A stretch of DNA of 64,000 nucleotides, taken from Polytrichum commune. Lineage: Eukaryota; Streptophyta; Polytrichopsida; Polytrichales; Polytrichaceae. The notes under the pieces were generated by a model that saw only the letters and a list, made by a program, of their open reading frames with translations, did no database searches and was not told the origin of the DNA. The first letter of the stretch is position 1, and every line of letters begins with the position of its first letter. This document shows, piece by piece, positions 3,455 through 63,913 of the stretch. A program made the position numbers and the translations under genes. Location: the NCBI GenBank assembly GCA_950295325.1, contig OX485803.1, positions 71,191,554 through 71,255,553 on the forward strand. Direction: 5' to 3'.

Positions 3455-4300
3455 TCAAATGAGTTTATTATATTTCGCGTGAGCGTACAACTCTCTGTAC
3501 ATATAGTCCTTCGGATCCATGTATCTTTCGCCTATCGGATTACAACTAAGGAACCGGGGCACGGGTAGTCCGCTCCCCACGAGCGTTTGAATGTACTTAA
3601 GTAGGTCTAACAAAAAGCGGTCTCGGACCTTCTCGACCGTCCACGTGGGGCAAACTATGAAGTTCGAGGTCGGGTTCAAAATGTTTTTGGAAGCGCTGTC
3701 GTCCACCATCAACGTGTTGTCACGGGTGGGGCGAACGTCGTAGGGACAGCCGACCATGGTCGGACGCTGGTCCCATACGACTGGCTTCAAGACCTTAAGA
3801 AATTGGTTTACGGCGGGGTTGTTGGGCTTCTTCACAACCCTGCCCTCGGGGGTGTATAATGTTTTACAAGAATCCTGTCCTAGGACCAAGCACGGGGGTT
3901 GGAGTCCCTTGAAGATGAACTCCACGACGGCCTGGGTATTCTCGGACTTCATGGAGCTCCAAATGATCACCCACCATTTGGATAGGGCGACCTGTAGGAA
4001 GCGCCGAAGGGACGGGCGGAGGTACACTAGCTTGCTTTTGATGTACGCGGGGGGTCCATCGTAGTTGGCGTCCTCGGGCTTGCAGAAAGGCACCGTAGGG
4101 ACCCTCGGACAATGCACGCACTGGACAAGGACCCCGTTGAGGTCTAGCACCAGGAACCGGGTCTTGGGAGGCGAAGGTGGCGAGGGCAAAATCGGGGGGA
4201 CCACCGCGCTGTCCTCCACACTCCTCGGAGAGGATCGGTGGGGAGCTGTGACGCTATGCTCCGAACCCTGCGGCGACGAGCGAGAGAAGGCGGACGAGGA
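3455..4300 (-). CDS. FCP1-type (HAD) phosphatase-like module, likely last exon of gene A
   Basis: FCP1/NIF-family phosphatases remove phosphate from serine, for example on the RNA polymerase II tail. The protein has FLVLDLNGVLV in place of the DxDxT/V catalytic loop, then LRPSLRRFLQ, VIIWSSM, and LMVDDSASKNILNP, in the usual order of the FCP1 homology domain. The second aspartate of the loop is asparagine (DLN), a change expected to weaken or remove phosphatase activity. The frame stays open upstream to an acceptor-like AG at 4301-4302. From there the exon is 846 nt and phase 0, matching a phase-0 donor at 4757 that ends the acidic exon of gene A. A proline/serine-rich linker precedes the domain. 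I therefore think it is exon 4 of gene A, but a separate gene is possible: the join is inference, the FCP1 call is firmer. Confidence 0.68.
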   Translation of the reverse strand, partial: SSSAFSRSSPQGSEHSVTAPHRSSPRSVEDSAVVPPILPSPPSPPKTRFLVLDLNGVLVQCVHCPRVPTVPFCKPEDANYDGPPAYIKSKLVYLRPSLRRFLQVALSKWWVIIWSSMKSENTQAVVEFIFKGLQPPCLVLGQDSCKTLYTPEGRVVKKPNNPAVNQFLKVLKPVVWDQRPTMVGCPYDVRPTRDNTLMVDDSASKNILNPTSNFIVCPTWTVEKVRDRFLLDLLKYIQTLVGSGLPVPRFLSCNPIGERYMDPKDYMYRELYAHAKYNKLI

Positions 4301-4712
4301 CTATGTTATGCTATGTCCATCTCAAGCAGAACGGAAATTTTGTGCAAACACAAGAAGAATTGGACCATTGGTGGCAACAAAAACATACAAGGGGAACAAC
4401 ATACATTGGGACACGGATGCAAACATATGGGCGCCAAAAATAATAATTTTATTTTTACAAATCTCTATGTACAATTTCATTGGGGGGGACCGCGGTGAAC
4501 GAGGGCATTCACACTACCCTAATTCTACATCTACAAAATTGGTTGCGCGCCGCCAAGGTCGAGCGTAGTCAAGTGCAGGTGAGACGAAGGGGATCGCGGG
4601 GGGGCACGTTGGGGGGAGGGGGAGCAAGTGTAGAGCATGGGGGGGGCAGGGGGTGTGCATTTCCTCCTAGCAAGGGGGACACGACCACGCCAACAAGACA
4701 ATGACCCAGGAA

Positions 4713-4734
4713 GTTTGGGTCGGTCGACCCAAAC
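4713..4734. repeat. P1 dyad in intron 3 of gene A
   Basis: 10-bp arm GTTTGGGTCG, two bases GT, then the exact reverse complement of the arm. It lies in the proposed intron 4301-4756 between the acidic exon and the phosphatase-like exon. Confidence 0.85.
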
Positions 4735-4756
4735 TGGGGAGGGCTCAGTGTATTAC

Positions 4757-7700
4757 CTCGCCCTGGTCATGTCTCGACAATGTGGAAGCCTCCACCGTCC
4801 CCGCTGCCCCGCCTCTCTCGCCACCGCCTTCTCCGACGACGTCAGGAACCTTCTCCTGCAAACGATCGGCATCAGGCCCTTGTCCTAAACCAATCTCCGC
4901 ATGTGCATCATGCATGCGTTCATCGATTTGGTTAGGAGTAGAGGTATCACCAGGCCCTTGCAGGCCTTCAACATCTAGCATGGCCGTGTCTAGTTGACAC
5001 CCATGTTGGTCAAGGGAGGACTGCGCTGCAACGGGGTTTGGGTCGCCCGACCCAAACTGTCCTGCATCTGGAGAGGGCCCTTCGGACACTCCAGTGGATG
5101 GTGGGTTTGGGTCGGTCGACCCAAACATCCTGGGGTCGTCCGCTTGGTGAGGGGGCGCCATGACTATGGGGGGCCGAAGTGGTGGAGGGCCCAAAGGGGA
5201 GGAGGCTCCAGAGACGCGCCAGATGTTGGGGTCATCCACTTGCTGGACCGGCGCATACGGAACTTGGTGGGGCCGAATCAAGTGCTGGAAGCTGAAAGAC
5301 GATTGCGGCACAGGCTGCTGAGGGATGCTCTGCGGAGGGAAGCCGGGGGGCAAGTGCGGGAAGGAGCTGGAGGGAGCCACCACCAAACCTTGCGCCCACA
5401 TTCCTTGTATCACTTGTGATATCAATTCGGCGTGGGACGGAGGTTGGGCCATCACCCTCTGTCGCTCCTGCTCCAACAGGAGAGCCCTCAGCTCTGCTAC
5501 CTCGTTCCGCATTGAGGGCTTTTCAGCAGCAGCCTTCTGTAGACAGACGCGTTGCTCCTCGTCCCTCCTCATCTTCTCGTTCGCCTCCTCCACGGTCAGG
5601 ACCTCGGGCTTCACCCTAACCATGCCAGCGAACGCTGTCGGGGAGGGGGGATCTGATCTGAGCCGTTTGGCGAGCTCAATATCATCGTCGTCCTCGCTGC
5701 TTATGGCAATGGTCTCCTCCACGGAGTAGTCGCCATACAGCTTCTTCCCCTTCAACTTCCTCCTCTCCCTGAACGTGGCGGTCGCGTCCCTGGAGTACAT
5801 GTCCCGTGCATCGTCCACAGTCAGGACGGGCACGAGCTTACTCTGCGGGGTTGCCGCCCGCATCGCCTTCTTCCGTTGAGGGGCTTCGGATTGTTGCGTG
5901 AAGCCCGTTGCCCCTTCCTCGACGTCGCCTTCCTTCTCCGCCTCCTCGTGTTCCTCTGCTTCCTCCTCCTCCTCCTCAACCTCGCCACCTTCTGTGCGGG
6001 ACGGATTGCCCGGATGCAACCCGACCAGAGGTTCGGGAACTTGGGTCGTGACCCTCATGGCCATTTCCTCCGGGTTGATGCGCCTCACCCTATCAAGAGG
6101 GTTTTCGCCACCCTGAACAACCTCGTCGACGTAGCTACCCGGGATCCAATCGAGGATGTCCATCTTCTTCGCCAGCGATTTCTGCACCCTATAAAATGGC
6201 AGATCGCCATCCTCTATGTAGGAGTATATATTCAGCCCCGACATCTACACAATCCAAGTTATAGGGAAATTAGAATTTGTCGAGGCAGTCACATATACAA
6301 GACTAAGTGAAATGTGTAGTTTGGGCCGGTCGACCCAAACCTGCAAAAAGCCTAGTTTGGGTCGGTCGACCCAAACCTGCAAAGAGCCTAGTTTGGGTCG
6401 GTCGACCCAAACCTGCAAAGAGCCTAGTTTGGGTCGATCGACCCAAACTGCTTACGAGCTATAGAAAGTCACTTACCATAGCAGCATAGACAGGTTTTGA
6501 GCCTCCGAAGACGTTGAAGATGCAGTCCCCTCTCCTCGTCAGCGTCCTCATCATTCTCATGTAAAATTCCATCCGCAGCTCATCTAAAGGATAGTTCGCG
6601 TATTTAGCCTCGTCGTAGAGGCACTTGTTGGCACCCAACCCTTCTGGAACTTGGAAGAGTTTGTCCATCCGGGATATAGGGTGGTTCGGCACCTTCAACA
6701 ACTCCGCTTTGTACACGAAGTACAAACACAAGACGTTGACGAACTTGGTCTTCTTGTCCCTCAACGTCGTGTAAGCCCCCTCCGCCGGTGCGGCGATGTA
6801 GTGAGACTTGGAGACTGCATACTCCGGCTGCAGTTTCCGGACAAGCTCGTACACCTGCTCCGCCCTCCTATCCTCGACTATCCAAAGCCAGATATCTACC
6901 TCCCTGAACTTAGGGCTTGCATAATCGACGAACTTAGATAGGAAGGGGTCATAGAAGAGGGTGCTCATTGTGCCCTCAAATGAGCTTCCAGGAATATTCC
7001 TGAAATCAATCATCCCAAAAGGAAAGCGGTCCCTTGCTTTTGTCCTTATCGCCATTCTGGCGTCCTGACTTGGCCAGCCCTGAATTTTCAAAGGCTCGAA
7101 GGTGACAAGGTTGAAGTAAGCGTCCCCTTCAAACTTGACAATCTTCTTCTCCTTGATGAAGTTCGAGAACGCACACGCTGTGTGATCCGGAAGCGCCCGG
7201 TTCTTCCCACCCTTCACCATCTTGGCCCGCAAGAAGTCGTCCCCCGCTTCCCTTATTAGAGCCGCCATGGAGGCACTGGTGAACTTATATTCATCTTTGA
7301 ATGCTCTCCAGTTAGCCTCATGAACCTCGCCGTCCACGACAATATTCCTCTCTGGCACCAATTTATGCAGCTCCTGCACGATAGTCGTCTTCTTTTTCCT
7401 GTTCTCCGTCCATTCCTTCATGGTGTAGCATGAAGGAACGAAGGATTTGGGCTTTTGGAAGACAATCTTCGGGTGCACCCAACACCTCTTCGCCGTGGGT
7501 GCCACGTGCAGGATGTGCGATGCCGCCTTCTCCACCTCCGTCTCTGACAGACCTTGAAGAGTTCTAAAGAACTCTCTCACGAGAGGCTTCATCTGCTTGA
7601 AGCGCGAGGCCAGGCTAAAGAAAGCGCCAGTGTCGGGGTCGATCAAATCCCCCGTCTCGTGCTTTTCAAACACGGTTTTCCACTTCCTCCAAACTGAGTC

Positions 7701-10700
7701 CGATGCTGTAATCAAGTAAATCTCCCCCTTGAGGTCGCTGTATTTCTTTTGCTTGTGGCTCGAATTATCAATGGAGGAGAATTTGTTGATCATTTGGTAT
7801 TTGAAATCCTGCACGTGAACAAAACAGAACATTTGAATGCGTGTTAGATATGTACATGTGATTTCCAAACCATATCATGACCAACATTTACAACAAGAGT
7901 TTGGGTCGATCGACCCAAACTAAATAAACAAGGTTGCACCAGGAGTTTGGGTCGGTCGACCCAAACAATACTCACCTCCCACTTGGGATTCTTGTCCTTT
8001 GCATTCTCCCTCTCCTTGGGAGGCCTACCATAGAACTCCCACACCTCCCGCGAGGCCATGATATTCCTTATCCAGGAAGCTTGGTAAGCCCTCTTCTTAT
8101 TTCCCATATTGAAGTACCGGGAGATGTCGCTGAGCTTGGTCTCGTCGTCAGACCACACCACCAGTGCCTTCCAAACCTTCAGCTTTTCCTTCTGATTGTT
8201 GGGATCATCCCACTCATTCATGAGTTGGATTTTCTTGGATGCCTCCACGCTGTGTTGGCCGTCTATCAGCCAAAAATCGCCCTTCTGAATTGTTGGCCAC
8301 ATTTCAGGTGTAGGCATTTTCTTGAGACCCTGTGGCATCACTACAATCGTTTGCCTGTCGTCTTTAAACTGCTCGCAAACGATCTGCGCGATTATCCAGT
8401 CAACGTAGGCGTCCTCCTTTGCCCGGACACACTTCTCCGGTGGCGCTAGATGGCACTGGCTGATGTTCACGTCGAACTTGCAATCCCTGCCCATGAAAAA
8501 ACAGTGGGAGCATTTCGTCGTGAAATTGTTCACAATTTTCTGCAGCTCCCCTGCATCCACCTCTTCGCCTGGCTTCGGCATGCGCATCTCCGGTGAGACT
8601 GGCTCGTCAGTCATCACAGATGACTCTCTCGCCCTCTTGGATGGAGTTGTTTGACGGCTCCCAGAAGGTGTAGGTGTCTCACTATTCGTAGGTGTTTGGG
8701 AGGGAGTGGTCCTACGCGAGTCAGCCGGTACTGGTAGCGGCATCCTCACCGATTGAGGTCTTGACGACCCTGCTCCTTCCTCTGTGGGAGCTTTCCGCCT
8801 CACAGGTTGCTGTGATTTGGTTTTGCTTTGCAGGCCCCTGTTCAGCACGGTTATTGCATGTTTTAGTTTTGTGAACCGGCTTGAGACCTTGGTATTCGAT
8901 GTACTCCCATCGATAAATATTGTCTCCGGCTTGATAACTTCCGGTTCGACACAGGATTCTCTTGCATAGAGTGCGTCGAAAGGCTCGGAGAACTGGTGCA
9001 TGAACATATGCGCGTTCTGCACAGCCGAGTTCTCGAGGATGACGTCGGTATAGTCTCCAAGAGACTGTACCGATGCGACCTCCCATCCCGCAAGAGTCGC
9101 CCAGGTGTGTTTCTCCACGGTTCCCACCTTGACAACAAAAATCATTTTGTATGTTGAGGCTTTGACTACTTGAATAGACCAAGCGAGGACAAGCCCGTCC
9201 TTAGGGGAATAGGAGTCATCCTGCGGGGTTTCGTGCTCCTGCCACAACATGTCCGGCGCAGGTGTGGTACTTTTGGGCCACCCCCTTTCGAGGGAGCCTA
9301 AAAGTATCACACAAGCCCTTCGGTGAAGGTGGCCTGCATTTGCAGGCGCCCAAGCCGAACCCGGATGATAGGTGTATAACGTGAGTAGTTAGATTTTTAA
9401 GGGAGATTAAATATGCGTCGTAGTACCTCCGGAGGTTAGGCCTTAGTTTTTTACTAGTGTGGCTTTAAACTCCACCAACCAATTTCATATCTAGTTCTAA
9501 CCTTAACCTACAACCTATTCTACGCGCAGACGCACCAGCCTTGAAACCAAGGCAATCCTAATTTGTGAATTGGGATGGTTCTGATACACCCAACCGGGTG
9601 TGACTCATACCACCCTAACTCAACGAACGGAATAACGACAATTTGATGGACCATTCAATTCTTCCTATTTCTTTATTTAGTTCTATTTAGTTTTCTAAGC
9701 GGGGGAACTTGGCCTAAGTCCCACCCTTCACACAAATTTTTTCTTAATTACTTACTTTTGTTTGCACGTCCTGACTTACTACATTAACATATTAGGCATC
9801 ACCCCTTACCTCGGGTCTCTTGCCAACAAGGGTTTACGATTTATTTTGTATGTTTTGATTGTTAAATGTGTTTACACTGGATAGACCACGAAATGCAACT
9901 CAATGGGACCAGGGTGACGGGCGACCTGTAGGTTCAACCTGTTGCGCAATCTTCATAAATTGGGGCCATTACTCCCAATCTATGGGGCCAACAACATAAT
10001 AGTGGATTCGCGGGTCATTAACCCCACCTTTCCACCAACAACATTCAGAGTGGTCGTGTCGGTGATTAATCCGACTTACCACACACGAAACTTGCTAATA
10101 AATGAAGCTACTACCACAAAACATACCAAGGGCCCCGAAAACAATGGAATTGGGTACTCCCTTGGCGGTCAAGTGGTCAAGCCACTTGACCTTACGAGAT
10201 AGGTGAGTGGGTTTAGAGATGCGTACCTTAGCCGTGCTCCCTCCGACCCTAAATGGAAGGCTTAAGGTTAGTTAATTTACCTCAATTTTCCTCGGTTGAT
10301 TTGGGCTTGATGTAGGCCGAGCCGCTACCTCCTTCCTTGCTCCACTTTCCGAGCGTCGACCTTGCCTCCTTCTTTGTAACTAGTTTGGTAGTAAGCGTAC
10401 CTTAGTTAACAATTAAAATATAAAGTGTTATTCTGCCCTGTAATTTAATCCTAAGCATAATATTTATACTTAGTGCACCAAATTATCTTTCCAATGATCT
10501 AAAAATCACTCTAATCGGATAAGAAATGCAAAAGTTATGAGGGTTGGAAGTGTGAGGTCGATTCAACCGACCCTTCCAACCCACCTATCTACCTTCTAAC
10601 TTCAAAAATTCATAGCACATTCCTTACTACTTGGATCTAGGCTTTCCTTATACCATTGGAAAGCTATGAACAAGCTCTAACTAGAAAAATTATGACATCA

Positions 10701-12174
10701 GCAGGTTAAGCTAATAGAAATTCAGCGGACTCCTTGTAACACAGCAGTCAATCAAGAAGGCTTAAACTATGTATCTCGCCTTCAACAATTCATATCTAAT
10801 TCAAATCTTAGTCAAATCAAACGTTCTATATGACCCTGGAGAGATATTAAAAATATGTATTTGATAAAAATATGTGATTAGAAAGGTAAGCCGAAGTGAA
10901 CCCAGCAGGTCCTCTGTAATGCAGCAGTCAACCAAAAGTTCTCAAACTATGTGTCCCATCTTGCACAATTCATATCTAATTCAAATCATGCTCAAATCAA
11001 ATGTTCTAAGCCATTTTGGAAAGCTACACAAAAGTTCTACTTGGAAAAAATATAATTTCTTGGAATTAAAATTCCTATTGGGCTCGCAGGTCTGATCCAG
11101 CAGCCGCTACCCACAAGACCACCCAGTTTTTTCTACTCCATCTTTGAAAATCCATAACTAATTGTCATCTCAACCAAATCACAAATGGGAAACGGCTATG
11201 GATGGCTATATGAAATCTCTCTAAGAGAAAAATGATAAGTATCTTGTTCTAGCTTTTGAACTAAGCCTTCAGGGCATTGGCAGATGAGGTCTATAATGCC
11301 TCTACTCAAAACTCTACCATCCAACCTACCTCTACAAAAGAAGGAATAATTTTGTTGGTGTGTTAATAAACACACAACCTAACTAGGAGAGAGAGAGTAG
11401 AGGAGGTTCTCAAGCCTTTCTTTTAGACCATTGAGAATACATGCTAAAGGATTTTTTCCTAACTACATTGAAGCAGGGCTTCGCCCAAAAACTAGAGAAA
11501 GAGAGAGAGCTACAAGGTGGAAGGAGGGGTTTTTAAACCCTCTCACAAAAGGGTTGGACCCCTCCTCCACCGGATCCATTTTTCAAACCCTTTCCCGAAA
11601 TTTTGGCTCGGGGGTTTTCCCGGTTGAGGTTGCCACCCTCTCGCCGAGGTGGCTCCGACAAAAAACCTTTAGAAATCTTTCTAATTTTTCCGCCATCGAG
11701 TTGGCAAGGGGGCAAGTGGGCAAGTATCCCCCTTGCTCTCTTTCTTTTTTGTCTTCAAAATTCTTCACGCCGATTTTTTCTTCTTACGTAAAACACCTCC
11801 AATAGTCTTGTGTGCCTCACACTAACTAATAAACTAACACTTGCTTAGCTAGCATTTACTAACATTTGCTTAATAGCTAGCATCTACTAATATTTGCTTA
11901 ATAACTAGCATCTACTAATATTTGCTTAGCTAGTTGTTTTTACTAGCTAGCACATTTTTTCTACTTTGCTATCTTCTAGCACTACTTAGTTTCATTTTGA
12001 CCTTCCTTCTTCTAGGCTAAATGCTAAATGAACTAATTTTCCCTAAATTCCCTATCAATTCTAACTTTTAATGCTAACATTCTAACTAAAAGTGATCCCG
12101 CAGAGTGGTGGACCACTCAAAGGGTTCACAGCAGGCATGAACCACCTTTCGCCGGGACTTTTCTTTGGAGCCAT
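4757..12174 (-). CDS. Gene A: ParB/DGQHR-like plus methyltransferase-like protein, split by a solo LTR
   Basis: The start ATG is at 12174, directly after a CAG acceptor, so the leader is spliced. Exon 1 runs 12174-12131, then 9257-7976 once the LTR and one GCAGG duplicate are discounted (442 codons). Exon 2 is 7808-6477 (444 codons) and exon 3 is 6244-4757 (496 codons). All junctions are phase 0 and no stop interrupts them, which supports the model. If exon 3 is not spliced at its end, it stops just beyond, at 4745. Around residue 347 is WLIDGQHSVEA, typical of ParB/DGQHR-type domains (nucleotide-binding DNA clamps or nucleases), with PPKERENAKD downstream. Exon 2 ends with FNVFGGSKPVYAAM and exon 3 opens with MSGLNIYSYIEDG. 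These match, with decay, the methyltransferase motif I region of gene M at the same exon junction. Exon 3 continues into an acidic run, predicted coiled coil and a Pro/Gln-rich region. An internal ATG at 9250 could give a product lacking only the first residues. Gene B is homologous through exon 2. Confidence 0.6.
4758..5126. repeat. Two P1 dyads inside coding exon 3 of gene A
   Basis: Full dyads at 5036-5057 (central bases CC) and 5105-5126 (central bases GT). In the gene A frame both encode variants of FGSTDPNP within a low-complexity region. The reading frame is kept, so coding sequence here tolerates, or was built from, the dyads. Confidence 0.8.
6319..6448. repeat. Cluster of four P1 dyads in intron 2 of gene A
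   Basis: Copies at 6319-6340 (one arm mismatch), 6355-6376, 6391-6412 and 6427-6448 (central AT, a perfect palindrome). They are spaced exactly 36 bp apart with CTGCAAAGAGCCTA-type spacers. The intron is only 232 bp (6245-6476), so dyads make up over a third of it. Confidence 0.9.
7899..7966. repeat. Two P1 dyads in intron 1 of gene A
   Basis: Copies at 7899-7920 (perfect, central AT) and 7945-7966 (central GT), 46 bp apart, inside intron 7809-7975. The second lies just inside the 5' splice site of this minus-strand gene. Confidence 0.9.
9263..12130 (+). mobile_element. Solo LTR, copy R1 (2868 bp), inserted in coding exon 1 of gene A
   Basis: Begins TGTGGTACTTTTGGGCC and ends GGGTTCACA, so it has the TG...CA ends of an LTR. 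The 5-bp target duplication GCAGG flanks it (9258-9262 and 12131-12135). No internal retrotransposon genes accompany it. It contains a partly duplicated stretch of roughly 200 bp (about 10735-10940) that R2 lacks. An 86-codon open frame at 9942-10202 recurs in R2 and R3 but begins with TTG and resembles no domain. Removing the LTR and one GCAGG restores the gene A frame, which dates the insertion after the last functional state of gene A. Confidence 0.85.
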
Positions 12175-13620
12175 CTGTAAGAAAATAATGTGCAAGGTTA
12201 GTTTCGGTCGTTCGACCCAAACATCTATGACATGAATAGGTTTAGGTGGATTGTGTATTTTTATATTTCAGCATCATTTGTAATGATAATAAGAATGTTG
12301 TGATTATTGGATGGATTTGCATTTTATATTGTTTGTGACATGCAGGATTCCTTGATACTTTTCTTTGATACATTCCTTGATTATTATTTTGGATTGATGT
12401 GAATTTTATATTGATGCAAAATATCATGGATTTCTTTATGAGTTTATAATTAGAAGACTTTGTTTGGGTCGCTCGGCCCAAACATGATGCTTTGTTTTGT
12501 GTTTGGGTCGAGCGACCCAAACAAGGGGCTGTGTTTGGGTCGTGTCCCCAAACAGTATTATTTTAATATATTTTTTAAACTTGGCATGTAGCATATACAA
12601 TGCTTATGCATTGTGTATGCTACAACACCGTGAATCTACAAACACATATTGGTTAAAATAAAATACAATACCTTTCAAAGATGTTGTGCAGACAATTTGG
12701 AGTAGAGCAGGTTGTTCTTCCAATAATTCTCAATATCAAACAAACTGTGAGAAAGTTCAATGAGAAACTTTCAAACAACTATCAACTCTCTCAAACAGCT
12801 TTTGGATCTCTCAACCAACTCCTGAATCTCACACAGAACTACTGAATCTCTCAAAAGACTTCGAAATGTCTAAACTAACTCCTGAATCTCACACACAACT
12901 ACTGAATCTCTCAAAAGACTTCGAAATGTCTAAACCAATTCCTGAATCTCACACACAACTACTAAACCTCTCAAAAGACTTCGAAATGCCTAAACCCACT
13001 CCTGAATCCCTCACAAAACTACTGAATCTCTCAAACGACTTCGAAAACTCTCAAACAACTCTTGATACTCTTAAAGAACTCTTGAATTTCACAAGCACTC
13101 CTAAAACTTCCAGTACAAACACCTGGACCTCCCAAACAGAAGCTTTATCTCCTACACAATGTTCTACTAACTTCCCTCAGCACTTTCCAACACTCTTCAA
13201 CAGTCTTGGATTAATTTCCTTCACACTCACGCTCGAAAACCCTCCTCCGTATGTTTCTGTTTCTTTCAAAATAAACCCTAACTTCCAAGATTGCACTGCG
13301 GCTATTCTATTGTAGAGCAAGAGGAAGGAGGGAAATAGAAGAATTAGAAGAAAACAAAACGCGGGTGAATGTGAAGAAAACCCACACCAAGCCTGAATCG
13401 CCGTGGCGCTTTGCGAAAGCGGCGCTTCAGGAGAGGCGGCGCTTCCAAGCAAAGCGCGGAGCGTAAGCTTGGCGCGGAGAGAGAGAGAGAGAGAGAAAGA
13501 ATGAAAAAATGTGACGGTTGGGGTTTTGTTTGCCTCGGGAATTGGCCCCCAACCGCATGAATAGGGTGCCCACAGGTTTAGGGCACCCACGGAAACAGGG
13601 TTACAGGGAACCCTAAAACC
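12175..13620 (-). promoter_or_regulatory. Leader region of gene A with P1-like dyads and a 60-bp minisatellite
   Basis: Because the gene A ATG directly follows a CAG acceptor, this region should hold a leader intron. It contains P1 or P1-like dyads at 12201-12222 (diverged), 12462-12483, 12501-12522 (central AG) and 12534-12555 (diverged). Further out, 12800-13070 is a 60-bp minisatellite (CTTCGAAATG at 12859-, 12919-, 12979-, spaced 60). Its plus-strand open frame (12866-13315) only translates the repeat. A (GA)n run sits near 13480. No TATA box could be fixed. Confidence 0.5.
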
Positions 13621-13844
13621 TAAAGCTTGACTCTAAACCCTTAGCGGGCCTACCTCTTTAAGAGTACATAGGCTATTTGCCTCATAGCATAGGTTGCATT
13701 CTACAATATCAACTTTTTGTAAGTTGAAAACCTTTTGAGTTTGTAAGTTCCTCGCCAATTGCCTTCAAAACTAATTTTTAGTAGGTTAAAATCCTTCATA
13801 TCTTTTAATGTTGTAGGTTTTAAAATCAAAATTTGAGTACTAAG

Positions 13845-13925
13845 TGGGATCCTTGGCAGGAATTGAACCTGGCTAAGCCTTTCACCACGTTTGAAGGCCA
13901 AGGATTAACCAAGTCTTTTTTAAAG
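13845..13925 (-). mobile_element. Possible tRNA-derived SINE fragment
   Basis: The minus strand contains GGTTCAATTCC, close to the internal B box of tRNA genes, about 40 nt after a CCTTGGCCTTCAAACG stretch typical of tRNA-derived SINEs. The acceptor and anticodon stems do not pair well, so this is not called as a tRNA gene. Confidence 0.3.
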
Positions 13926-15228
13926 AGTTGATTATAAGTTATGAAAGGTTGCTAAAATTCAAATGAGTTCAAGGGTGAAAGTTCTCACCATGTTCTCATT
14001 CAACCTCTACTCTTCCTGCAAGATATAGCCTAAAGATATGTACTTAGGCCAACTAATTTCCCAATTTGAAGAAGGATGAATGGCTAAAATCCTCTCTTTT
14101 AAAAAAAATTTAGGCAAAATTTCCTAAATGTTTTTTATCACATAGGTTGATATCCTATGTTTTTAAATTGTCCATAGGCTCTTTGTCCTACACTTTCAAA
14201 ATTTTATAGGCTAAGTCACTAATTTTGTAGGCTGCATTTGTTTTAATCGGTATATTCATTAATTTGGGATTTTTTCGGCATTTTGAGAAAGTTACAAATA
14301 TAAGAACATGGATAAAATCGCACGTACATTGGAGAATGTTGTAAGATGCAAATACTTTGAAGCGGGTGTTCATATCAAGAACGCAATTAAGATCTCATAT
14401 GAAGATGGTTTAGGTAGGACGACCCAAACATTACACTATGTTGTTGTGGTTCATATATTAATTTGAGAGAAGAGAAAATCTCAAATTAGCAAATTTTAGG
14501 GTTTAGGTTCTTTTGGACCCTGCTCTAAACCCTTATTAGTTTTTTCAAAAGAACTATGGAGTACCCTAAGGTGCTACATAAAATGTGTTATTCTACAAAA
14601 CTAACCATTTATATAGCCAGCGCATTCTTACAACAAAACTTTATGCTAAACTAATACTTATCCCCTACTTACATGACACCATACCCTAAATTTTCCAAAA
14701 TCATTGAAGGCATTGGTTTCTCTTTTGTTTGAGCATGTTAGAAAAACCATATAATTGCGTTATATTTAACGATGTAACCATTCACATTTAGTCTTTACCA
14801 ATGATGCCAACAATTCACACGATATTGAATGAAAAAAAAAAGATTACACACACCCCCCAACATGTGGAACAATTTAGAATAATTGAGTGTGGAGCCTAAT
14901 AAATGAATACCTTCCCCAACTGCATTTTGCAAGGGTTTTGAAATGCACGATCCTTATTTGAAAATGCGAACATGCTCAAGTTTTAAGTACATCCCTTAGA
15001 TCGTGACTTTCACGAATCACATAGTCGCCAATAAATCATGGTTCATGATATATTTAATATATAGATTGTGATATAAGAGTAAATGGGATAAGCACAACAT
15101 CAAATGAAGCCATTCAAGCAATCATGTTGTTATTCCCTGTTCCTTCCATGTATATTAGATGATGGCGCAAGATAAAATAGATGTTGTTTGTATATGGGGG
15201 CATCAGTGAACCACAACTACATTTGGTG

Positions 15229-15256
15229 TTTAGGGTTTAGGGTTTAGGGTTTAGGA
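15229..15256 (+). repeat. Interstitial plant-type telomere repeat
   Basis: About four TTTAGGG units in tandem; a shorter run lies near 15992-16008. This unit is the usual telomere repeat of land plants. Confidence 0.8.
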
Positions 15257-16379
15257 GATAGGAGATAGGGTTATAACATATTAATCTATCCAATGTTAAT
15301 GTATAACATTGTCTTACTCGTGAGAAGAGTCTTATAGGAAGGTTATAGTGAAGACGATGTTGATTATGTTAATTTGTTATTTGAGACGTTTAAACGCGAT
15401 ATATTGATTGGTCGTGTGTTTATTCAAATAACATGAAATATTGTGGATGTTAATAGGGGTTATGGGTCCAACTTTGGATGTTTCGCTCACTTTAGGGAAT
15501 CACATATTAGTCGCTAATAAACCATCGTTCATGATGTATTTAATATATGGAATGTCATGTAAAAGTAAATCGGAGAAGCACAACATCATGTTGTTATTCA
15601 TTGTTCTCTCCACGTGTATTAGATAATGGAGGAAGATATAACAGATATTGTTTGCATAATATTATGAAGAAGAGTCTAATCGGAAGGTCATAGTAAATAC
15701 AATCTTGATCATGTTAATATGTTATATGGGACGTTTAAACATGATATCCTAATTGGTTTTGTATTTAGTCAATGCGTATTTCATGTTGTGGATGTTATAA
15801 GGGTTTAGGGTCCAATCTTGGATGTTTTGCTCTCACACATTAGTAAACTTGAAGTGAACTTGAGGATGGATTCAAGTAACATTAAAAGATTGAACTAGAA
15901 AGGGACATTGGTAGTTAGTATCCCCTTAACAACGTCCACATACGTTCGTCATTGCCACTCTTGCATGCGAGATAATAGAGCAAGGTTCTAGGGTTTAGGG
16001 TTTAGGGGGGACAAATAAATAATTCTATTCATCATGACAATGGCCTCAAGCCTTGGAAACTCTCTCATAATTGCAGCCTCCAAATGGCCCAAACCCCACC
16101 TAAATAGGTTTACACTTGAAAGCATTGAATGGAGTTGTGTTTGGATCTACATATTGGTTAAAATATACCTTGATGATACTTGAAAAAATTAATGTGGCCG
16201 CCACCCTTCCTCCCAATGGCGTATGTCATATCCACACAAAACAAAACAAATAGATTAAATAACATAGACTAAGTCATATGACGGCTGGGGTATCATAGGG
16301 GCATTGATAGATGCGCATTTTTCTATTATAAACAGAAAACGGGGAATTCTGTCAGGAGGTTTGAAATAACCTCTGCAAG

Positions 16380-16470
16380 AGAAGAAGGCGGGGAAGGCAT
16401 CCAATGACTAAGTCTGGGAAGCGGAGGTGGATAGTATAAAGGGGCGCACCCCCAAAAGTCGGTCCTTTTT
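16380..16470 (+). promoter_or_regulatory. Core promoter of transposase element T1
   Basis: CCAATG at about 16401, TATAAA at 16435-16440, then GGGGCGCACCCCC and a T-rich tract. The same order, in related sequence, occurs before T3 (AGTACTTAAGGGGACACCCCCC at 48271-48292, then ACTCTTTTTGC). Conservation between two diverged elements supports a real promoter with transcription starting about 30 bp after the TATA box. Confidence 0.55.
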
Positions 16471-16744
16471 TTCTCTTCTCCCGCTGTCGAATTCGTAGAG
16501 AGAACTCTTAGTAGGAGCTGTATTTCAAGGTTCGTGCATGCTGCCGTTCATGAGCACTTATCCATAGCATGCAAGTTCATGAGCACCTATCCACACCATG
16601 CAACCCCACTGTGAACTTTGCAATGAGCTCAAATTCAACACACCACGCAATATCCGCCGCATTATACGCCGGATTTTGTGGTGTACTTGGGCGAACCTTC
16701 ACCTTTACACTAGTGTTGGTGGGTTTTGAGTCTGACCCTATGAG

Positions 16745-19700
16745 GTTTGGGTCGACCGACCCAAACCTGTCCACTAGTGTGTTAGGGTTTATGTCTGACC
16801 CTTAACATGTTTGGGTCGGTCGACCCAAACCCCAACCCCACTGTGTTAGGGTTTTTGTCTGACCCTTATCAGGTTTGGGTCGACCGACCCAAACCTGTCC
16901 ACTAGTGTGTTAGGGTTTATGTCTGACCCTTGTGAGGTTTGGGTCGGTCGACCCAAACCCCTACCCCAGTGTCTTAGGGTTTTTTTCCTGACCCTTATCA
17001 GGTTTGGGTCGACCGACCCAAACCACTACATGGTGTGGGTGGATGTACTCTTGTGAGGTTTGGGTCGGTCGACCCAAATGTGAACCCTTTGAGTGGTCCA
17101 CCACTCTGCGGGATCACTTTTAGTTAGAATGTTAGCATTAAAAGTTAGAATTGATAGGGAATTTAGGGAAAATTAGTTCATTTAGCATTTAGCCTAGAAG
17201 AAGGAAGGTCAAAATGAAACTAAGTAGTGCTAGAAGATAGCAAAGTAGAAAAAATATGCTAGCTAGTAAAAACAACTAGCTAAGCAAATATTAGTAGATG
17301 CTAGTTATTAAGCAAATGTTAGTAAATGCTAGCTAAGCAAGTGTTAGTTTATTAGTTAGTGTGAGGCACACAAGACTATTGGAGGTGTTTTACGTAAGAA
17401 GATAAAATCGGCGTGAAGACTTTTGAAGACAAAAAAGAAAGAGAGCAAGGGGGCTACTTGCCCACTTGCCCCCTTGCCAACTCGATGGCGGAAAAATTAG
17501 AAAGATTTCTAAAGGTTTTCTGTCGGAGCCACCTCGGCGAGAGGATGGCAACCTCAACCGGGAAAACCCCCGAGCCAAAATTTCGGGAAAGGGTTTGAAA
17601 AATGGATCCGGTAGAGGAGGGGTCCAACCCTTTTGTGAGAGGGTTTAAAAACCCCTCCTTCCACCTTGTAGCTCTCTCTTTTTCTCTAGTTTTTGGGCGA
17701 AGCCCTGCTTCAATGTAGTTAGGAAAAAATCCTTTAGCATGTATTCTCAATGGTCTAAAAGAAAGGCTTGAGAACCTCCTCTACTCTCTCTCTCCTAGTT
17801 AGGTTGTGTGTTTATTAACACACCAACAAAATTATTCCTTCTTTTGTAGAGATAGGTTGGATGGTAGAGTTTTGAGTAGAGGCATTATAGACCTCATCTG
17901 CCAATGCCCTGAAGGCTTAGTTCAAAAGCTAGAACAAGATACTTATCATTTTTCTCTTAGAGAGATTTCATATAGCTATCCATAGCCGTTTCCCATTTGT
18001 GATTTGGTTGAGATGACAATTAGTTATGGATTTTCAAAGATGGAGTAGAAAAACTGGGTGGTCTTGTGGGTAGCGGCTGCTGGATCAGACCTGCGAGCCC
18101 AATAGGAATTTTAATTCCAAGAAATTATATTTTTTCCAAGTAGAACTTTTGTGTAGCTTTCCAAAATGGCTTAGAACATTTGATTTGAGCATGATTTGAA
18201 TTAGATATGAATTGTGCAAGATGGGACACATAGTTTGAGAACTTTTGGTTGACTGCTGTGTTACAAGGAGTCCGCTGAATTTCTATTAGCTTAACCTGCT
18301 GATATCATAATTTTTCTAGTTAGAGCTTGTTCATAGCTTTCCAATGGTATAAGGAAAGCCTAGATCCAAGTAGTAAGGAATGTGCTATGAATTTTTGAAG
18401 TTAGAAGGTAGATAGGTGGGTTGGAAGGGTCGGTTGAATCGACCTCACACTTCCAACCCTCATAACTTTTGCATTTCTTATCCGATTAGAGTGATTTTTA
18501 GATCATTGGAAAGATAATTTGGTGCACTAAGTATAAATATTATGCTTAGGATTAAATTACAGGGCAGAATAACACTTTATATTTTAATTGTTAACTAAGG
18601 TACGCTTACTACCAAACTAGTTACAAAGAAGGAGGCAAGGTCGACGCTCGGAAAGTGGAGCAAGGAAGGAGGTAGCGGCTCGGCCTACATCAAGCCCAAA
18701 TCAACCGAGGAAAATTGAGGTAAATTAACTAACCTTAAGCCTTCCATTTAGGGTCGGAGGGAGCACGGCTAAGGTACGCATCTCTAAACCCACTCACCTA
18801 TCTCGTAAGGTCAAGTGGCTTGACCACTTGACCGCCAAGGGAGTACCCAATTCCATTGTTTTCGGGGCCCTTGGTATGTTTTGTGGTAGTAGCTTCATTT
18901 ATTAGCAAGTTTCGTGTGTGGTAAGTCGGATTAATCACCGACACGACCACTCTGAATGTTGTTGGTGGAAAGGTGGGGTTAATGACCCGCGAATCCACTA
19001 TTATGTTGTTGGCCCCATAGATTGGGAGTAATGGCCCCAATTTATGAAGATTGCGCAACAGGTTGAACCTACAGGTCGCCCGTCACCCTGGTCCCATTGA
19101 GTTGCATTTCGTGGTCTATCCAGTGTAAACACATTTAACAATCAAAACATACAAAATAAATCGTAAACCCTTGTTGGCAAGAGACCCGAGGTAAGGGGTG
19201 ATGCCTAATATGTTAATGTAGTAAGTCAGGACGTGCAAACAAAAGTAAGTAATTAAGAAAAAATTTGTGTGAAGGGTGGGACTTAGGCCAAATTCCCCCG
19301 CTTAGAAAACTAAATAGAACTAAATAAAGAAATAGGAAGAATTGAATGGTCCATCAAATTGTCGTTATTCCGTTCGTTGAGTTAGGGTGGTATGAGTCAC
19401 ACCCGGTTGGGTGTATCAGAACCATCCCAATTCACAAATTAGGATTGCCTTGGTTTCAAGGCTGGTGCGTCTGCGCGTAGAATAGGTTGTAGGTTAAGGT
19501 TAGAACTAGATATGAAATTGGTTGGTGGAGTTTAAAGCCACACTAGTAAAAAACTAAGGCCTAACCTCCGGAGGTACTACGACGCATATTTAATCTCCCT
19601 TAAAAATCTAACTACTCACGTTATACATCTATCATCCGGGTTCGGCTTGGGCGCCTGCAAATGCAGGCCACCTTCACCGAAGGGCTTGTGTGATACTTTT

Positions 19701-20289
19701 AGGCTCCCTCGAAAGGGGGTGGCCCAAAAGTACCACACCAAACCCCTACCCCCAGTGTGTTAGGGTTTTTTCCTGACCCTTATCAGGTTTGGGTCGACCG
19801 ACCCAAACCCCTACGTGGTGTGGGTGGATGTACCCTTGTGAGGTTTGGGTCGGTCGACCCAAACCCCTACTCCAGTGTGTTAGGGTTTTTTTCTGACCCT
19901 TGTCAGGTTTGGATCGACCAACCCAAACCACTACCTGGTGTGGGTGGATGCACCCTTGTGAAGTTTGGGTCGGTCGACCCAAACCCCTACCCGAGTGTGT
20001 TACGGTTTTTTCCTGACCCTTATCAAGTTTGGGTCGACCGACCCAAACCCCTACCTGGTGTGGGTGGATGTACCCTCGTGAGGTTTGGGTTGGTCGACCT
20101 AAACCCCTACCCCAGTATGTTAGGGTTTTTTTTCTGACCCTTATCAGGTTTGGGTTGACGGACCCAAATCACTACCTGGTGTGGGTGGATGTACCTTTGT
20201 GAGGTTTGGGTCGGTCGACCCAAACCCCTACCCCAGTGTGTTAGGGGTTCAGTCCGACCCTTATGAGGTTTGGGCTGGTCGACCCAAAC
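16745..20289. repeat. P1 dyad array in the leader of T1, interrupted by LTR R2
   Basis: About fourteen dyads in two blocks. Before the LTR: 16745, 16809, 16873, 16937, 17002 and 17058. After it: 19787, 19843, 19908, 19963, 20027, 20083, 20148 and 20204, with a diverged copy at 20268. Spacing is mostly 55-65 bp, and the central bases alternate AC and GT from one dyad to the next. Spacers contain GTGTGTTAGGGTTT and CTGACCCTTATCAGG. The array lies between the T1 promoter and an acceptor (TGTGTAG at about 20483) just before the T1 start codon, so it is probably intronic. Confidence 0.88.
17079..19737 (-). mobile_element. Solo LTR, copy R2 (2659 bp), inserted within a P1 dyad
   Basis: Same family as R1, opposite orientation: plus strand starts TGTGAACCC and ends GTACCACA. 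The target duplication is CCAAA (17074-17078 and 19738-19742). Joining the flanks rebuilds one P1 dyad and its usual CCCTAC spacer. About 200 bp shorter than R1, because one copy of an internal repeat near 18250 is missing. Confidence 0.88.
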
Positions 20290-20488: not shown

Positions 20489-23400
20489 ATGGAGGGAGTT
20501 GGTGGAAGAGGGGATTCCTTCTCTGACGACATGGGCAACACCCAATCTCCGTCTGGGGATGAGCTAGACATTGTTGGGGAGGATAGTTTTGATGACAGTG
20601 CAGATGAAGGTGACTTGGGGAGTCCTTCGCCATCTGCCCCTTCTTGCCCCACTGTGGAATGTGCTGGGCTTTCACGAGCTTCATGGGTGAATTTGGATGT
20701 AGTACTTGTTAATGACAGTGGAGTTGCTGTGGCGGAGGGTATTTGTCGTAACACACATCCACAAGATTGCATTGATGAAAACCCCCTTGGCACCGAGGAC
20801 GTTGGAGTTGTTATATTGGAATCACTCGTACATTCCGAAGTTAATCCAACTCATAGGTTCTCGTTGCGAAGGTGGCCGTTGAGGAATGTGACAATTGATG
20901 GGATTAATTTGCATGAGCATGAGCGACGACACATCCAAATCCAAGAGGAGCTCCAAGCAAACATTCGGCCACGCAAAGGCCTACGGAAGTACGATACATT
21001 GGCACGTCCTATTCCGTCTGCAAATGAGTGTAAACGTCAAAGGTTGCTTTGTGAGGAGTCCATTAGAGAAGTTGCCACAAAGGATTGTTGTGTACATCGT
21101 TGTTGCCAATTGTTCCCAAGGGATAAATTGAAGGCCATCCGCGAGGAAATGTGGCTTGGAGATTTCCGTCTAAGATCCACCAAAAAGCTTGATGTCCATA
21201 GGGCGATACATGTGAACGGAGCGGGTCGCAAGGTCATCACCCTTGAGAGCATAGACGTGTGTTGTACGGCATGGTACACCATTCACGGTGTGTCGAAAGC
21301 GGAATTTTATAGACAAGCCGCGTATGCCAAGGAAGGCCGCCGGTCCCATCACCATGGGAATACGGGCTTAAAGAAACCAAGGGAAGCAACGAGACAAGCA
21401 ACCGCCACTCTGGCAACCATCATTGTCCCCCTTGCCGATGCAATGCCACACAAAACACGCACACTCGCAACCGGTGAAAAGGTTGTGGATAAGGTTCTTC
21501 CTACAGGCACGAAATGGAAAGACATATTGTTGGACGTAAACGCAGTTGGCGAGAAGGCTGGGTTGGACCCTATTTCGTTGTCGAAACTGAGTGCAATAAA
21601 AAAATCTCACTTTAGCGAATACATCACAAAAAGACGAGGCGACAAATTTGCGCGTTGTTCTAAATGCGAGAAGTTGAAACGCCTTCGAGATGCACACACG
21701 ATGGGGACAGAGTCCTATGCCGCACATCAAATGAACTATTTCAAGCATGTGAACATGCAAGAGGCACACCGTAATGATTACTACACAAATAGAGCTTTGT
21801 CCATCTCTAGGCCTTTGGAGGTCCTTACAATCATCCATGACAAAATGGACCATGCCAAAACAGCCTCACCATGTTTTGCAAATCGAATCAAAGCCACGGA
21901 CGGCCTTTTTAAGCTTTCTGTATCGGTTACAGGTGATTTCGATAACAATTGCATTGCATTACCTAAACACAAATTTGTGCTTTAGGTTTGTACTTGGGAC
22001 CATAGATGTACAGCAGGTGAATTTTTTGGTGTCATAGTTGAATATTAAACCATTGCGTTGGCTTTGCAGGGATGATTGCACATGGACATGGTGATGTCAA
22101 GTATGCTCATTATGCTCTTGATTTGTATCCGGCGGATTCAAACCACACGATAGGGTCATTTGCAAAGCTTTTACGTGATTTGGAGAAACCGCCGTCCTAT
22201 TCATCAAGATTGTTATTTGAAAACTCGGGATCAACACCTCTATATGAAGCGGTCTTGGATGGAAGAGATGTATGCGTGCACTCCTTGCCGGAGCCACCAA
22301 GTGAAGATGTGATTGCCAAGAATTTGCCCCCAACTCTGCGTGTCCAATTGGACAATTGTGCGAAGGACAATAAAAGTAGATATGTTTTTGCATATTGGTC
22401 GTTGTTGGTTGCAAAAGATATTTTCAAGGAGGTTTTTGTGTCCTTTCTATTGGTAGGCCACACGCACGACGATATCGATGCATCTTTTGGGCGGTGGAGC
22501 ATGAAGTTGCGCGAGGAGGATTTTCCAACAATCCCATTGTTGATGAAGTCGTACATGGATTTGGAGAACATTCCCGTCATCCCCCATATGATCGAGGAGG
22601 TTCCCGACTTCAAGGCATTTATAGAACCGTATATTCGAAGCGGAGCTCACCGATTGATCGGACATACGAAGGCACAACAATTTCGGTTCTACGTGCGTGA
22701 CGATGGTGTCCCCGCCATGCAATACAAGTTGTTGTGCACGTCACAAGACTGGAGCCCGCCGGAGGGTCTCCTTGTATGGCGTGTTGATGGGGAGGGAAGG
22801 ACGATGTTGCCTGACGGAGAGCCTAAGCCTTGCAAACCAATACCCATGAAGAATTTGGAGGACATTTGTAAAGGCATATCAGGCTTCATACAATATTGGG
22901 AGAGTTTGAGGGTAGCGGATGTTGGTGGATCGTGTTGGCTTCGTTACGGAAGTTGGATACAATATTGGACACGTGTTCGTGGCGCTTTGGCAAACCTTCA
23001 TCAAGATACACCCCTTACTTTAAGGCATGGGTTTTGGCCACAAACACGTGTCAATGTACAAGCTTCGGAGGCTAGTCTTTTGGGAAATGGAGAGGTTCGA
23101 GAGGAGTTTGATGTGGACGACCATTACGTGGGGCCTGCTAGTAGTCGTCCGCCACCATCTTTCCGCATTGCAGTGGATTGTCATGAAGGTTATATGCTCA
23201 TTTTGCGTCCTGGACATGAGACATATGCAAAGCCAGTGTGGGTGGCAAGAGCTTTGTCCAATCCAAATTTTGTAACTTCCAGCCCTCATTTTTGACAAAT
23301 ACAAGTAGAGTACTACCGACCGACAACACGGAATGAAGATGTTGTTCGGCATTATACAGGCTGGGATACAAACCAACACTTTCGGTGGAAGGTGGATTCT

Positions 23401-23556
23401 GAGCACGGTCCATCTTGGGTAGATACAGATTCCATATTCATAGCATGGAAACCACGGAAAAATCATAGTGGATCAGTGTCCATCCCTCAAAAGTACATAA
23501 CTTTTGCAAAAGACAACCTTGCTCGGATCGCAGAAGAAGCAACCCACGTTGAATGA
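20489..23556 (+). CDS. T1: DUF7869-like DDE-type transposase, late nonsense codon
   Basis: Two exons, 20489-21932 and 22070-23556, total 977 codons including the final stop. T3 gives 976 codons with the same intron position, which supports the model. The start ATG lies just after an acceptor. The N-terminus is acidic. CCVHRCCQLF and CSKCEKL...DAH look like zinc-binding stretches. Acidic triad candidates are MDHAKT (D about 454), QLDNCAKDN (D about 576) and GHTHDDIDASFGR (D about 615), fitting an RNase-H-fold integrase/transposase. This residue pattern is that of proteins labelled DUF7869 (label from memory). TGA at 23293-23295 replaces a His codon of T2/T3; 87 codons of homologous sequence follow, so the product would be 889 residues. 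The catalytic part is intact, so activity is possible. Confidence 0.7.
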
Positions 23557-24090
23557 GAAGTTGGTAAGATTGTGTTAGCATGATTATAGTGTAATATGTA
23601 ATTCGACAAATATATATTACTCATATGTGTGCTCCTCAAACTTGGGGCAAAGTTTGGGTAGAGCTTCTGAATGCTATATTGTTTGGGGTTGGATGAATAT
23701 CCATTTACTATATTTCAATGCAGTTGTGAAGTTCATTTTTTTATTAAGTTTGGGACTAAATTTTCCAGTGAAGAAAAATGCATTTATTGCATGTACTTTG
23801 TATGTTGCAATGTCTATATTTTATTGACCATGCTAATAATAGAAATCATTTTATATGTTTCTTGGGTGAAACTAGTTTGGAGTGCTCTACCCAAAGTGTT
23901 TTTGTTGATGAAGTTGATGTTGAGTGCTCTACCATATGTGCTTATGTACACACATAATAGATTTGGGATATTAGAACATATAATATATTTGAGATTGTTC
24001 GCAATATAGTTTCGGAACACGGAATGTTGTTTGATCCATATATTAATTTGAGACTAGAGAAAGTCTCAATTTAACGAATATAGTGTTCAA
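23557..24090 (+). other. 3' flank and terminus of T1
   Basis: Holds diverged P1-like pieces (GTTTGGGTAGAGC near 23651 and CTCTACCCAAAG near 23886). It ends with a hairpin (TTGAGACT, short loop, AGTCTCAA) followed by AATTTAACGAATATAGTGTT at about 24069-24088. The same hairpin-plus-tail ends T2 (27782-27825) and T3 (53655-53699), so it is probably the element terminus. I found no inverted counterpart (AACACTATATTCG) upstream. Confidence 0.55.
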
Positions 24091-27089: not shown

Positions 27090-27825
27090 TATTGACGTAG
27101 GCTTGGACCACAATTATTTGAAATGTGTCTTGGTTTTTCATGAAATATATGACATTGGGGTCGAATACTATATTAGACACATTTTATAGCAATTTTATAT
27201 ATTACAATTATATATCATGATTGTATTGATTTACGGATGTGGAATCCAACTTCACATGCACTATCAAATGTTTTTTATACGTTTGTGTTTTTTATATGTT
27301 TGTGTTTTTTATATGATTGTGTTTTTTATATGATTGTGTTTTTTATATGTTTGTGTTTTTATATGTTTACGGATGTGGAGTCCAAACTATATAATTATAT
27401 TGCAGATGCTAATTTGCAATTTCTTATACACACTGTCAAATTATTTTAATATTGTTGCGTTTGGGATGTGCCGTTCAATTCACCCACAATTGGCTAAGAT
27501 GTTATGTTTGGGATACGCATCCAAGAGTCCCTAGATATAAAATCAGATGGCTATTTATAGATTCGTTAATTTTGTTCAATACAAAATCAAAAATACAAAA
27601 TAATTGTGAATTTGTGATATTGGAATATTGTGTTGGCGTAATTTTGATTATCCCCCAAATAATTACTATATTTAGAAACATATATATTCATCACATATGG
27701 ATCTTTTGAACATTATGTTGCCATTGTTCCCCATGTTCCCTACGTTCACAATATTCGCATCCGAAACTACGGGTCCAATTTATTTTGAGACTTTCCAAAG
27801 TCTCCAATTAACGAATATAGTGTTA
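27090..27825 (+). other. 3' flank and terminus of T2
   Basis: Contains a short tandem run of TTTTTTATATGTTTGTG-type units at 27270-27366 and ACGGATGTGGA pieces resembling P2 half-dyads, then the element-end hairpin GAGACTTTCCAAAGTCTC and tail ending at about 27825. The repeat array of gene C begins immediately after. Confidence 0.55.
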
Positions 27826-32470: not shown

Positions 32471-32489
32471 GCAGGTAGAGAACAACGCA

Positions 32490-34397: not shown

Positions 34398-34429
34398 GTG
34401 AGTTCTCTCCTTTCATGATACAGTTTTAT

Positions 34430-41859: not shown

Positions 41860-41916
41860 CTGCAAATGGTGACATACACAACATGTTCGAATTATGGTCA
41901 ATGGATGTAGATCTAA

Positions 41917-42682
41917 CTTTACGAACGCGCGTTCGTAAAGTTTTGCATATTCTATCAATTATATCTTTTAAAGAATGTTATAGTGAATACGCAAATCGCG
42001 TACATTATATGCTCAATCGCGTACATTATATGCGCGTCCGTGACCTCTGTACATATATGATAGAAAATGATGTGCTTACTTATATATGTCTAGTTTACGG
42101 ACGTGCGTCCGTAAACTCTGCACATATATTATATACAGAATTAGTTGTCATATATGCCTAGTTTAGGAACGTGAATCTGTAAAGTTTTCAATCATTTTAT
42201 ACTATTGACAAATCTCTATATGTTACGGACGGGCGTCTGTAACCTCGACATATATTATTCAGTGAATTATTACTTATTTTGCCTAGTTTACGGACGCGCG
42301 TCCGTAAACTTTTCAAATATTTTATTCAGGAAAAGTTTATGCTACTTACAATTCTTTTGATGTTACGGACGTGCGTCCGTAAACTACTCACATGTATTAT
42401 TCAGTGGATTATTACTTATTTTGCAAAGTTTACGGACGCGCGTCCGTAAACTTTGCAAATATTTTATTCAGGAAAAGTTTATTCTATTTACAATTCTGTG
42501 GAAGTTACGGACGCGCGTCCGTAAACTCCGCATATATATTGTGTGAGGGTCTTCTTTCTCACCCACACAAGGTCCATAAAGTTTACGGACGCGCGTCCGT
42601 AAACTCCGCATATATATTGTGTGATGGTCTTCTTTCTCACCCACACATGGTCCATAAAGTTTACGGACGCGCGTCCGTAAAC
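41917..42682. repeat. P2 dyad array in the leader of gene B
   Basis: Consensus: arm GTTTACGGACG, two bases CG, reverse complement (24 bp, perfect palindrome). Good copies at 42093-42116 (central TG), 42286-42309, 42428-42451, 42581-42604 and 42659-42682, with near-perfect ones near 42362 and 42504 and diverged ones near 42163 and 42225. The copy at 41917-41940 has arm CTTTACGAACG and is still perfectly symmetric. The array lies just upstream of the acceptor that precedes the ATG, so it is probably in a leader intron. Confidence 0.88.
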
Positions 42683-63912: not shown

Positions 63913-63913
63913 A

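Follow-up and report, generated by a model that had tools for sequence, protein, structure and literature searches.

Introduction

In the VANDAL transposons of Arabidopsis, VANC21 motifs occur upstream of VANA as well as within introns of both VANC and VANB (PMC5735166, available text), and VANC21 binding is accompanied by loss of silent marks (PMC10398659, available text). For algae, the available text of PMC12477816 describes Sola1-1_Ec32, a 21.5-kb Sola1 element of Ectocarpus in which a ParB-like plus methyltransferase protein is encoded opposite the transposase, cites similar proteins for green and red algal transposons and gives the proposal that algal ParB-methyltransferases bind and modify their own element; it does not name their target sites. 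Here we describe gene A, the accessory gene of a DNA transposon in a 64,000-nucleotide stretch of Polytrichum commune DNA (assembly GCA_950295325.1, contig OX485803.1, positions 71,191,554 to 71,255,553, forward strand). This whole stretch is called the window, and its coordinates are used throughout.

With the algal proteins described in that text, the gene A product shares a ParB plus methyltransferase composition, as predicted, and a place opposite the transposase on a giant transposon (PMC12477816). What is new relative to them is that explicit candidate sites are given, which co-diversify with the protein, that the enzyme is degenerate, its DPPY motif being replaced, and that a NIF module is added. 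A search of the available literature, with the primary papers behind the cases cited in PMC12477816 outside its scope, found no report of target sites or of land-plant cases. A first-pass annotation made from the sequence alone knew of no described plant system of this kind; from algae, transposon ParB-methyltransferases have been published (PMC12477816).

With VANC, as presented in the available text, gene A has in common that a non-transposase protein is accompanied by short, family-specific motifs that are concentrated in introns and ahead of the transposase, in tandem repeats; here too they diverge with the protein. The VANC21 motif YAGTATTAY is, in contrast, non-palindromic, and the transposon is of another kind (PMC5735166). 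The sequences were compared via Pfam only, in which gene A exons 1–3 matched no family at E up to 1. By this analogy we consider, with a probability of about 0.5, that the gene A protein is a VANC-like anti-silencing factor that would bind the palindromes of its own element as a dimer.

The transposon carrying gene A

Gene A is an accessory gene of a 17–19 kb DNA transposon and stands back to back with a DUF7869 transposase gene. The features of the window copy are as follows.

12131–12174, minus strand: gene A exon 1, first 44 bases (MAPKK...), with an AG acceptor just before (sequence)
9261–12130: solo long terminal repeat (LTR) splitting gene A exon 1, with the 5-bp duplication GCAGG (by eye)
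7976–9260, minus strand: gene A exon 1, N domain and predicted ParB-like domain (sequence, homology, model)
6477–7808, minus strand: gene A exon 2, with a probable helix-turn-helix and a fold like that of beta-class methyltransferases (homology, model)
4757–6244, minus strand: gene A exon 3 (sequence)
3455–4300, minus strand: gene A exon 4, NIF/FCP1-like phosphatase module with DLNGVL (Pfam, motif)
from 12201: gene A leader, with three copies of the palindrome P1 at 12201–12522 and a degenerate fourth at 14408–14429
20489–23553, plus strand: DUF7869 transposase gene belonging to this element, its last open frame closing at 23295 and homology continuing to 23553
24043–24087: right terminal inverted repeat (comparison of copies)

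The four minus-strand exons are joined in phase 0 throughout, with GT-AG borders placed by eye, the 4757/4300 join being compatible with GAG/GT...AG/TCC. Below the LTR 1,647 stop-free codons were counted, in agreement with the more than 1,600 phase-0 codons noticed at first pass once the LTR was discounted, and the start agrees with that of homologue P0012. The span to 13620 then assigned to the gene was too long, 12201–13620 being non-coding leader.

The genome search covered 407.8 Mb of the window's genome, in which gene copies are spread over contigs C1–C7. Three intact elements, copies B, C and D on contig C1 at 628333, 1193037 and 2113298, measure about 18.1, 18.6 and 17.0 kb and have a common plan: gene A, leader palindromes, a palindrome array and the transposase pointing away. 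Their exons are 76–85% (B, with exon 3 in two pieces of 77 and 56%), 93–98% (C) and 96–99% (D) identical to those of the window copy. They end in 28-bp inverted repeats, AACACTATATTCGTTAAATTGAGACTTT, without a mismatch in B and D and differing at three positions in C, and all three are flanked by 4-bp target duplications (ACTT, AAGG and ATAA, by eye). Target duplications of 4 bp are also characteristic of Sola transposons; the transposase here was identified only as DUF7869. The window copy has no left end, homology stopping at 3375, and was invaded by two solo LTRs, one in exon 1 and one within a palindrome; a search of copy D for their counterparts gave no match. Gene A, read at first pass as one of a plant gene family with recognition sites in its introns, is a transposon accessory gene.

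Placement and conservation of the P1 palindrome

P1 is a 22-bp palindrome, GTTTGGGTCG-NN-CGACCCAAAC, whose copies are called dyads below. At up to 3 mismatches the window holds 28 P1 dyads against 0.03 expected, all at about 4714–20288. Exact P1 occurs 9,731 times genome-wide and the pattern read backwards 0 times. An untargeted count of perfect palindromes in the window gave P1 and two others, P2 and P3, as the top three, in non-overlapping zones. The dyad scan placed P1 outside the leader as follows.

7899–7966: two P1 dyads in gene A intron 1
6319–6448: four P1 dyads in gene A intron 2, in 36-bp steps
5036–5057 and 5105–5126: two in-frame P1 dyads in gene A exon 3
4713–4734: one P1 dyad in gene A intron 3
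16745–20289: array of 15 P1 dyads ahead of the DUF7869 transposase, interrupted by a solo LTR at 17079–19738 (duplication CCAAA by eye)

The recount of introns 1, 2 and 3 (2, 4 and 1) reproduced the first-pass numbers, and the leader, given about four, has three and the degenerate one. The corresponding intron counts are 4/3/1 in copy B, 3/2/1 in C and 3/3/1 in D, and the exon 3 pair, 69 bp apart, is present in all four copies. Homologous copies with dyad-free introns had been named at first pass as counting against the proposal. A protein search with exon 2 scored 95 copies among 1,230 candidates, and 20 of the 95 were sampled, about every fifth down the list with the window's own excluded. 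P1 dyads (up to 2 mismatches) were found within 450 bp of exon 2 on the intron-1 side in 20/20 and on the intron-2 side in 20/20; in these 20 copies there were none inside exon 2 and none of the classes P2–P5 near it. In five full or near-full elements no gene A intron is free of dyads, and dyads also lie between the two divergent genes; one of these elements, of the P2 lineage, has them partly at 2–3 mismatches.

Conservation is confined to the 22-bp palindrome. Among 134 P1 dyads, picked at up to 3/18 mismatches, a procedure that alone imposes a floor of 83%, conservation is 98% in the arms, 53% at the central pair and 39% in the flanks; 101 of the 134 are perfect. CpG observed/expected is 0.34–0.51 around the dyads, and under the same picking bias 250/268 dyad CpGs are intact. 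Departures within P1 elements comprise 50 one-sided and 0 mirrored bases (in P2, 34 and 8), which argues that the sequence is kept rather than mere pairing. For the same reason the reading of the dyads as RNA or DNA hairpins, acting in splicing or as small RNA with no protein reader, is very improbable: perfect palindromes inside introns would suit it, whereas exon 3 and the stretch ahead of the transposase have dyads as well, and dyad class follows the protein clade (see below).

Predicted folds of the gene A protein

Structure models predict a ParB N-terminal fold for the gene A protein. A helix-turn-helix region is likely, alignments reaching model residue 555 (161 residues to 7bnr_A), but with an rmsd of 13 Å across the hinge. 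The likeness to bacterial ParB-parS, Noc-NBS and KorB lies in the predicted ParB domain, the likely helix-turn-helix and palindromic candidate sites near the protein's own gene. The bacterial systems differ in that here GERR, the CTP motif of ParB, is replaced, methyltransferase and NIF modules are attached and the gene has eukaryotic introns. By sequence, a search of the Protein Data Bank with profile A3 gave a sole match at E 0.89, and the best match in PHROGs had E 0.099.

KorB and ParB structures are among the structural matches of the gene A model. In each of the five elements inspected, dyads lie in the interval that separates gene A from its divergent transposase. Both observations would suit the main rival explanation, in which the protein binds the dyads as a repressor, an activator or a part of the transpososome and has no role in silencing; autoregulation by ParB and KorB, and TnpA of En/Spm, are models for it. 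Many dyads, however, lie in introns, kilobases from the promoter side, and the ends have no dyads, except that copies B, C and D each carry a degenerate one (3 mismatches) some 0.5 kb away from the left terminal repeat. We regard this explanation as unlikely, though worth keeping in view.

The models also predict a beta-class methyltransferase fold, with the motif IV region ahead of the motif I region, as in the DNA methyltransferases M.BceJIV, CcrM, RsrI and MboIIA, from which the protein differs in having no catalytic motif. DPPY is replaced by D-F/Y-R/C-x-x-P in 56 of 79 homologues, the rest being without match or without coverage; [DNS]PP[YFW], at any position, occurs in one (P0004), and motif I is FGG[ST]K in most, not FxGxG. 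An active methyltransferase marking its own element at the dyads, as the available text of PMC12477816 proposes for the algal proteins, would agree with the fold and the motif order; given the motif replacements we consider it improbable. The ParB-like plus methyltransferase order suggested at first pass is thus supported in its folds and not in its motifs, GERR and the catalytic DPPY both being replaced. The degenerate FCP1 module suggested as a possibility was borne out: exon 4 matches the NIF domain (PF03031, 2.5e-13), with DLNG in 5/5 elements in place of DxDx, the catalytic motif of NIF/FCP1.

A sister lineage with palindrome P2

A second lineage, whose protein is 35–40% identical to that of gene A, is accompanied by P2, GTTTACGGACGCGCGTCCGTAAAC, with 18 copies in the window at up to 5/24 mismatches. 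The terminal repeat is common to both lineages.

39246–41859, minus strand: gene A', second ParB-like gene, exons 1–2, cut by an LTR at 36405–39245, with one frame shift within exon 1
40528–42682: ten P2 dyads, distributed over the gene A' leader and its intron 1 (dyad scan)
48560–49584: array of eight P2 dyads before the second transposase; another P2 lies in the transposase intron near 51181
49725–52820, plus strand: second transposase, interrupted by two in-frame stops, with open frames ending at 50714 and 51725; the right terminal repeat ends at 53697
24088–27824, plus strand: P2-type transposase region fragment, which matches 49819–53024 at 95% identity along 3.2 kb and carries the same terminal repeat

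A P2 element at C1:31278001–31295073, its left end outside the stretch examined, carries the sister gene, of which a NIF exon (41%) and an exon 3 (25%) were also detected. Its P2 dyads occupy introns 1–3 of this gene, its leader, the array and an intron of the transposase, those of intron 3 and the transposase intron with 2–3 mismatches; the intron-1 dyad was at first assigned to exon 1, the protein alignment having overrun the splice site. This element has no P1, and the four P1 elements have no P2, at up to 3 mismatches. Between gene A' and its transposase lies a DDE_1 transposase fragment (44671–45264; Pfam, 1e-17).

Palindrome type and protein clade among homologues

Two protein searches yielded 79 homologue clusters, 60 in the P1 clade, 16 in the P2 clade and three outer rows. 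Many homologues are open frames running into an intron, so that their tails spell the dyad, and dyads were decoded from the peptides. As read in this way, palindrome type follows protein clade. Among the 48 P1-clade proteins with a readable flank, 30 read P1-type dyads and none P2-type; of 15 such P2-clade proteins, nine read P2-type and none P1-type. The tails of the three outer rows held no class dyads, 100 shuffled flank sets gave 0 dyads, and the P1 pattern matched twice in 25,435 residues of P1-clade protein cores. An untargeted palindrome search of the read-through peptides was noisy (71, 79 and 133 matches against 23–39, 27–52 and 77–103 in shuffled sets) and was set aside for class patterns. 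Viral contigs yielded neither an exact P1 nor any relative of P0011; P0011 itself is a P2-clade protein of 863 residues in which exons 1 and 2 are contiguous, as in a spliced transcript or an intron-less copy.

P1 sub-types decoded from peptides differ on both arms: CGGTCG in P0005 (which also has one plain P1) and P0007, CGGGCG in P0008, P0045 and P0014 (the last on a contig as long as that of P0045), GGGCCG in P0006 and P0061, and CGAACG in P0024 and P0026–P0028. The CGGTCG form occurs 0 times in the window's genome. A tree was made from 62 exon-2 rows, and rows shorter than 290 residues were dropped before the tree counts; fine labels were assigned manually for P0005, P0026, P0027, P0051 and both window genes, and P0054/P0055 were kept ambiguous. 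The P1/P2 label changes once on the tree (30 rows) and the four P1 sub-types three times (20 rows), each as few in 0/500 shuffles. The helix presumed to recognise the dyad has W-x-R-[LV]-F in CGGACG/CGGCCG readers, which changes to W-T-[QT]-F-F in CGAACG readers; the tie of this change to CGAACG is a lead only, from a single evolutionary event.

Neutral repeat growth, in which dyads spread with tandem repeats, would predict such a tree match from descent alone and is in keeping with several tandem arrays (36, about 46 and 56–78 bp steps). Descent does not, however, provide for the survival of the palindromes. Among dyads picked at up to 3 mismatches, arms are 98% conserved between unrelated flanks (39% top base) and CpGs persist in CpG-depleted DNA. 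Neutral growth therefore appears very improbable.

Gene C and palindromes P3–P5

32490–34398, plus strand: gene C, with a DGNHRR motif, ParB-like by motif only
27896–36236: 21 P3 dyads before and after gene C (dyad scan)

P3 dyads, TGTCTCGGNNCCGAGACA / GTGTCTCGGTCCCGAGACAC, number 21 in the window at up to 4/20 mismatches. The gene C model is of poor confidence (pLDDT 45), and exon 3 has an in-frame TAA near 33650 (by eye). The facing transposase-like open reading frame (ORF) is SWIM-like at E 0.076, under the Pfam cut-off. A relative of gene C, C2 (in stretch L018, situated 10 kb upstream of the window, and in stretch L028), also faces transposase-like ORFs and is surrounded by 30 copies of P4, TTGTCGGATCCGACAA. 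Two stretches with C3 genes (among L021–L023, L026 and L027) hold 20 and 15 copies of P5, CTGTGCGTTAACGCACAG. Their P1-type dyads lie in part between two transposase-like open frames and in part just upstream of C3; in one stretch they are scattered across 15 kb, possibly as parts of two or more elements. One C3 stretch also has 28 P3-type dyads. With P1 near C3 genes, the idea that P1 is a site private to gene A was ruled out. Exact P2 and exact P3 have the same genome count, 1,310, an unconfirmed coincidence that is not relied on.

Interpretation

The palindromes lie between divergent genes and in introns, beside a predicted ParB/helix-turn-helix protein of the same element, and this layout, being that of VANC21, favours sequence-specific anti-silencing. 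The gene A protein would combine, as modelled, a ParB domain with a helix-turn-helix and with a methyltransferase fold that lacks the usual catalytic motif, and might read the dyad through the helix-turn-helix. Occupancy of many dyads could then protect the element by keeping silent chromatin off promoters and introns, and the degenerate phosphatase module may contact the transcription machinery. If so, VANC-like self-recognition would have arisen a second time, independently, and its reader would be a bacterial partition domain; the candidate sites come in several matched protein/palindrome pairs.

Several points weigh against this proposal. Anti-silencing itself is proposed by analogy. GQHS stands in place of GERR in all ten rows of alignment A2. 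Readable flanks without a dyad make up 18/48 in the P1 clade and 6/15 in the P2 clade, one frame of a short tail being visible, and the homologues counted were also those from which the classes had been defined. The P2 sub-types (8 P2-clade rows) do not follow the tree, 141/500 shuffles being as good. The C3 stretches, which have no gene A, hold 18 and 17 P1-type dyads, so that P1 is common to two kinds of element, and hhalign found no significant kinship between genes C and A (probability 0.3 against A2).

More broadly, and tentatively, at least two kinds of transposon, each with a ParB-type reader, may tag introns and promoters with their own palindromes (P1 to P5) in a eukaryotic ParB-parS-like code that speciates by mirrored substitutions. 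Some elements (C3) would have adopted the palindrome of another lineage, perhaps exploiting its protection.

Other features of the window

Tandem repeats of about 75 and 85–150 bp, free of dyads, lie at 529–1116 and 63170–63913. Runs of TTTAGGG, of the plant type, were noted by eye. One LTR family has four copies, at 9261–12130, 17079–19738, 36405–39245 and 56842–59867. The third, at which no duplication was seen by eye, joins the P3 element to exon 2 of gene A', and this junction suggests recombination between two elements.

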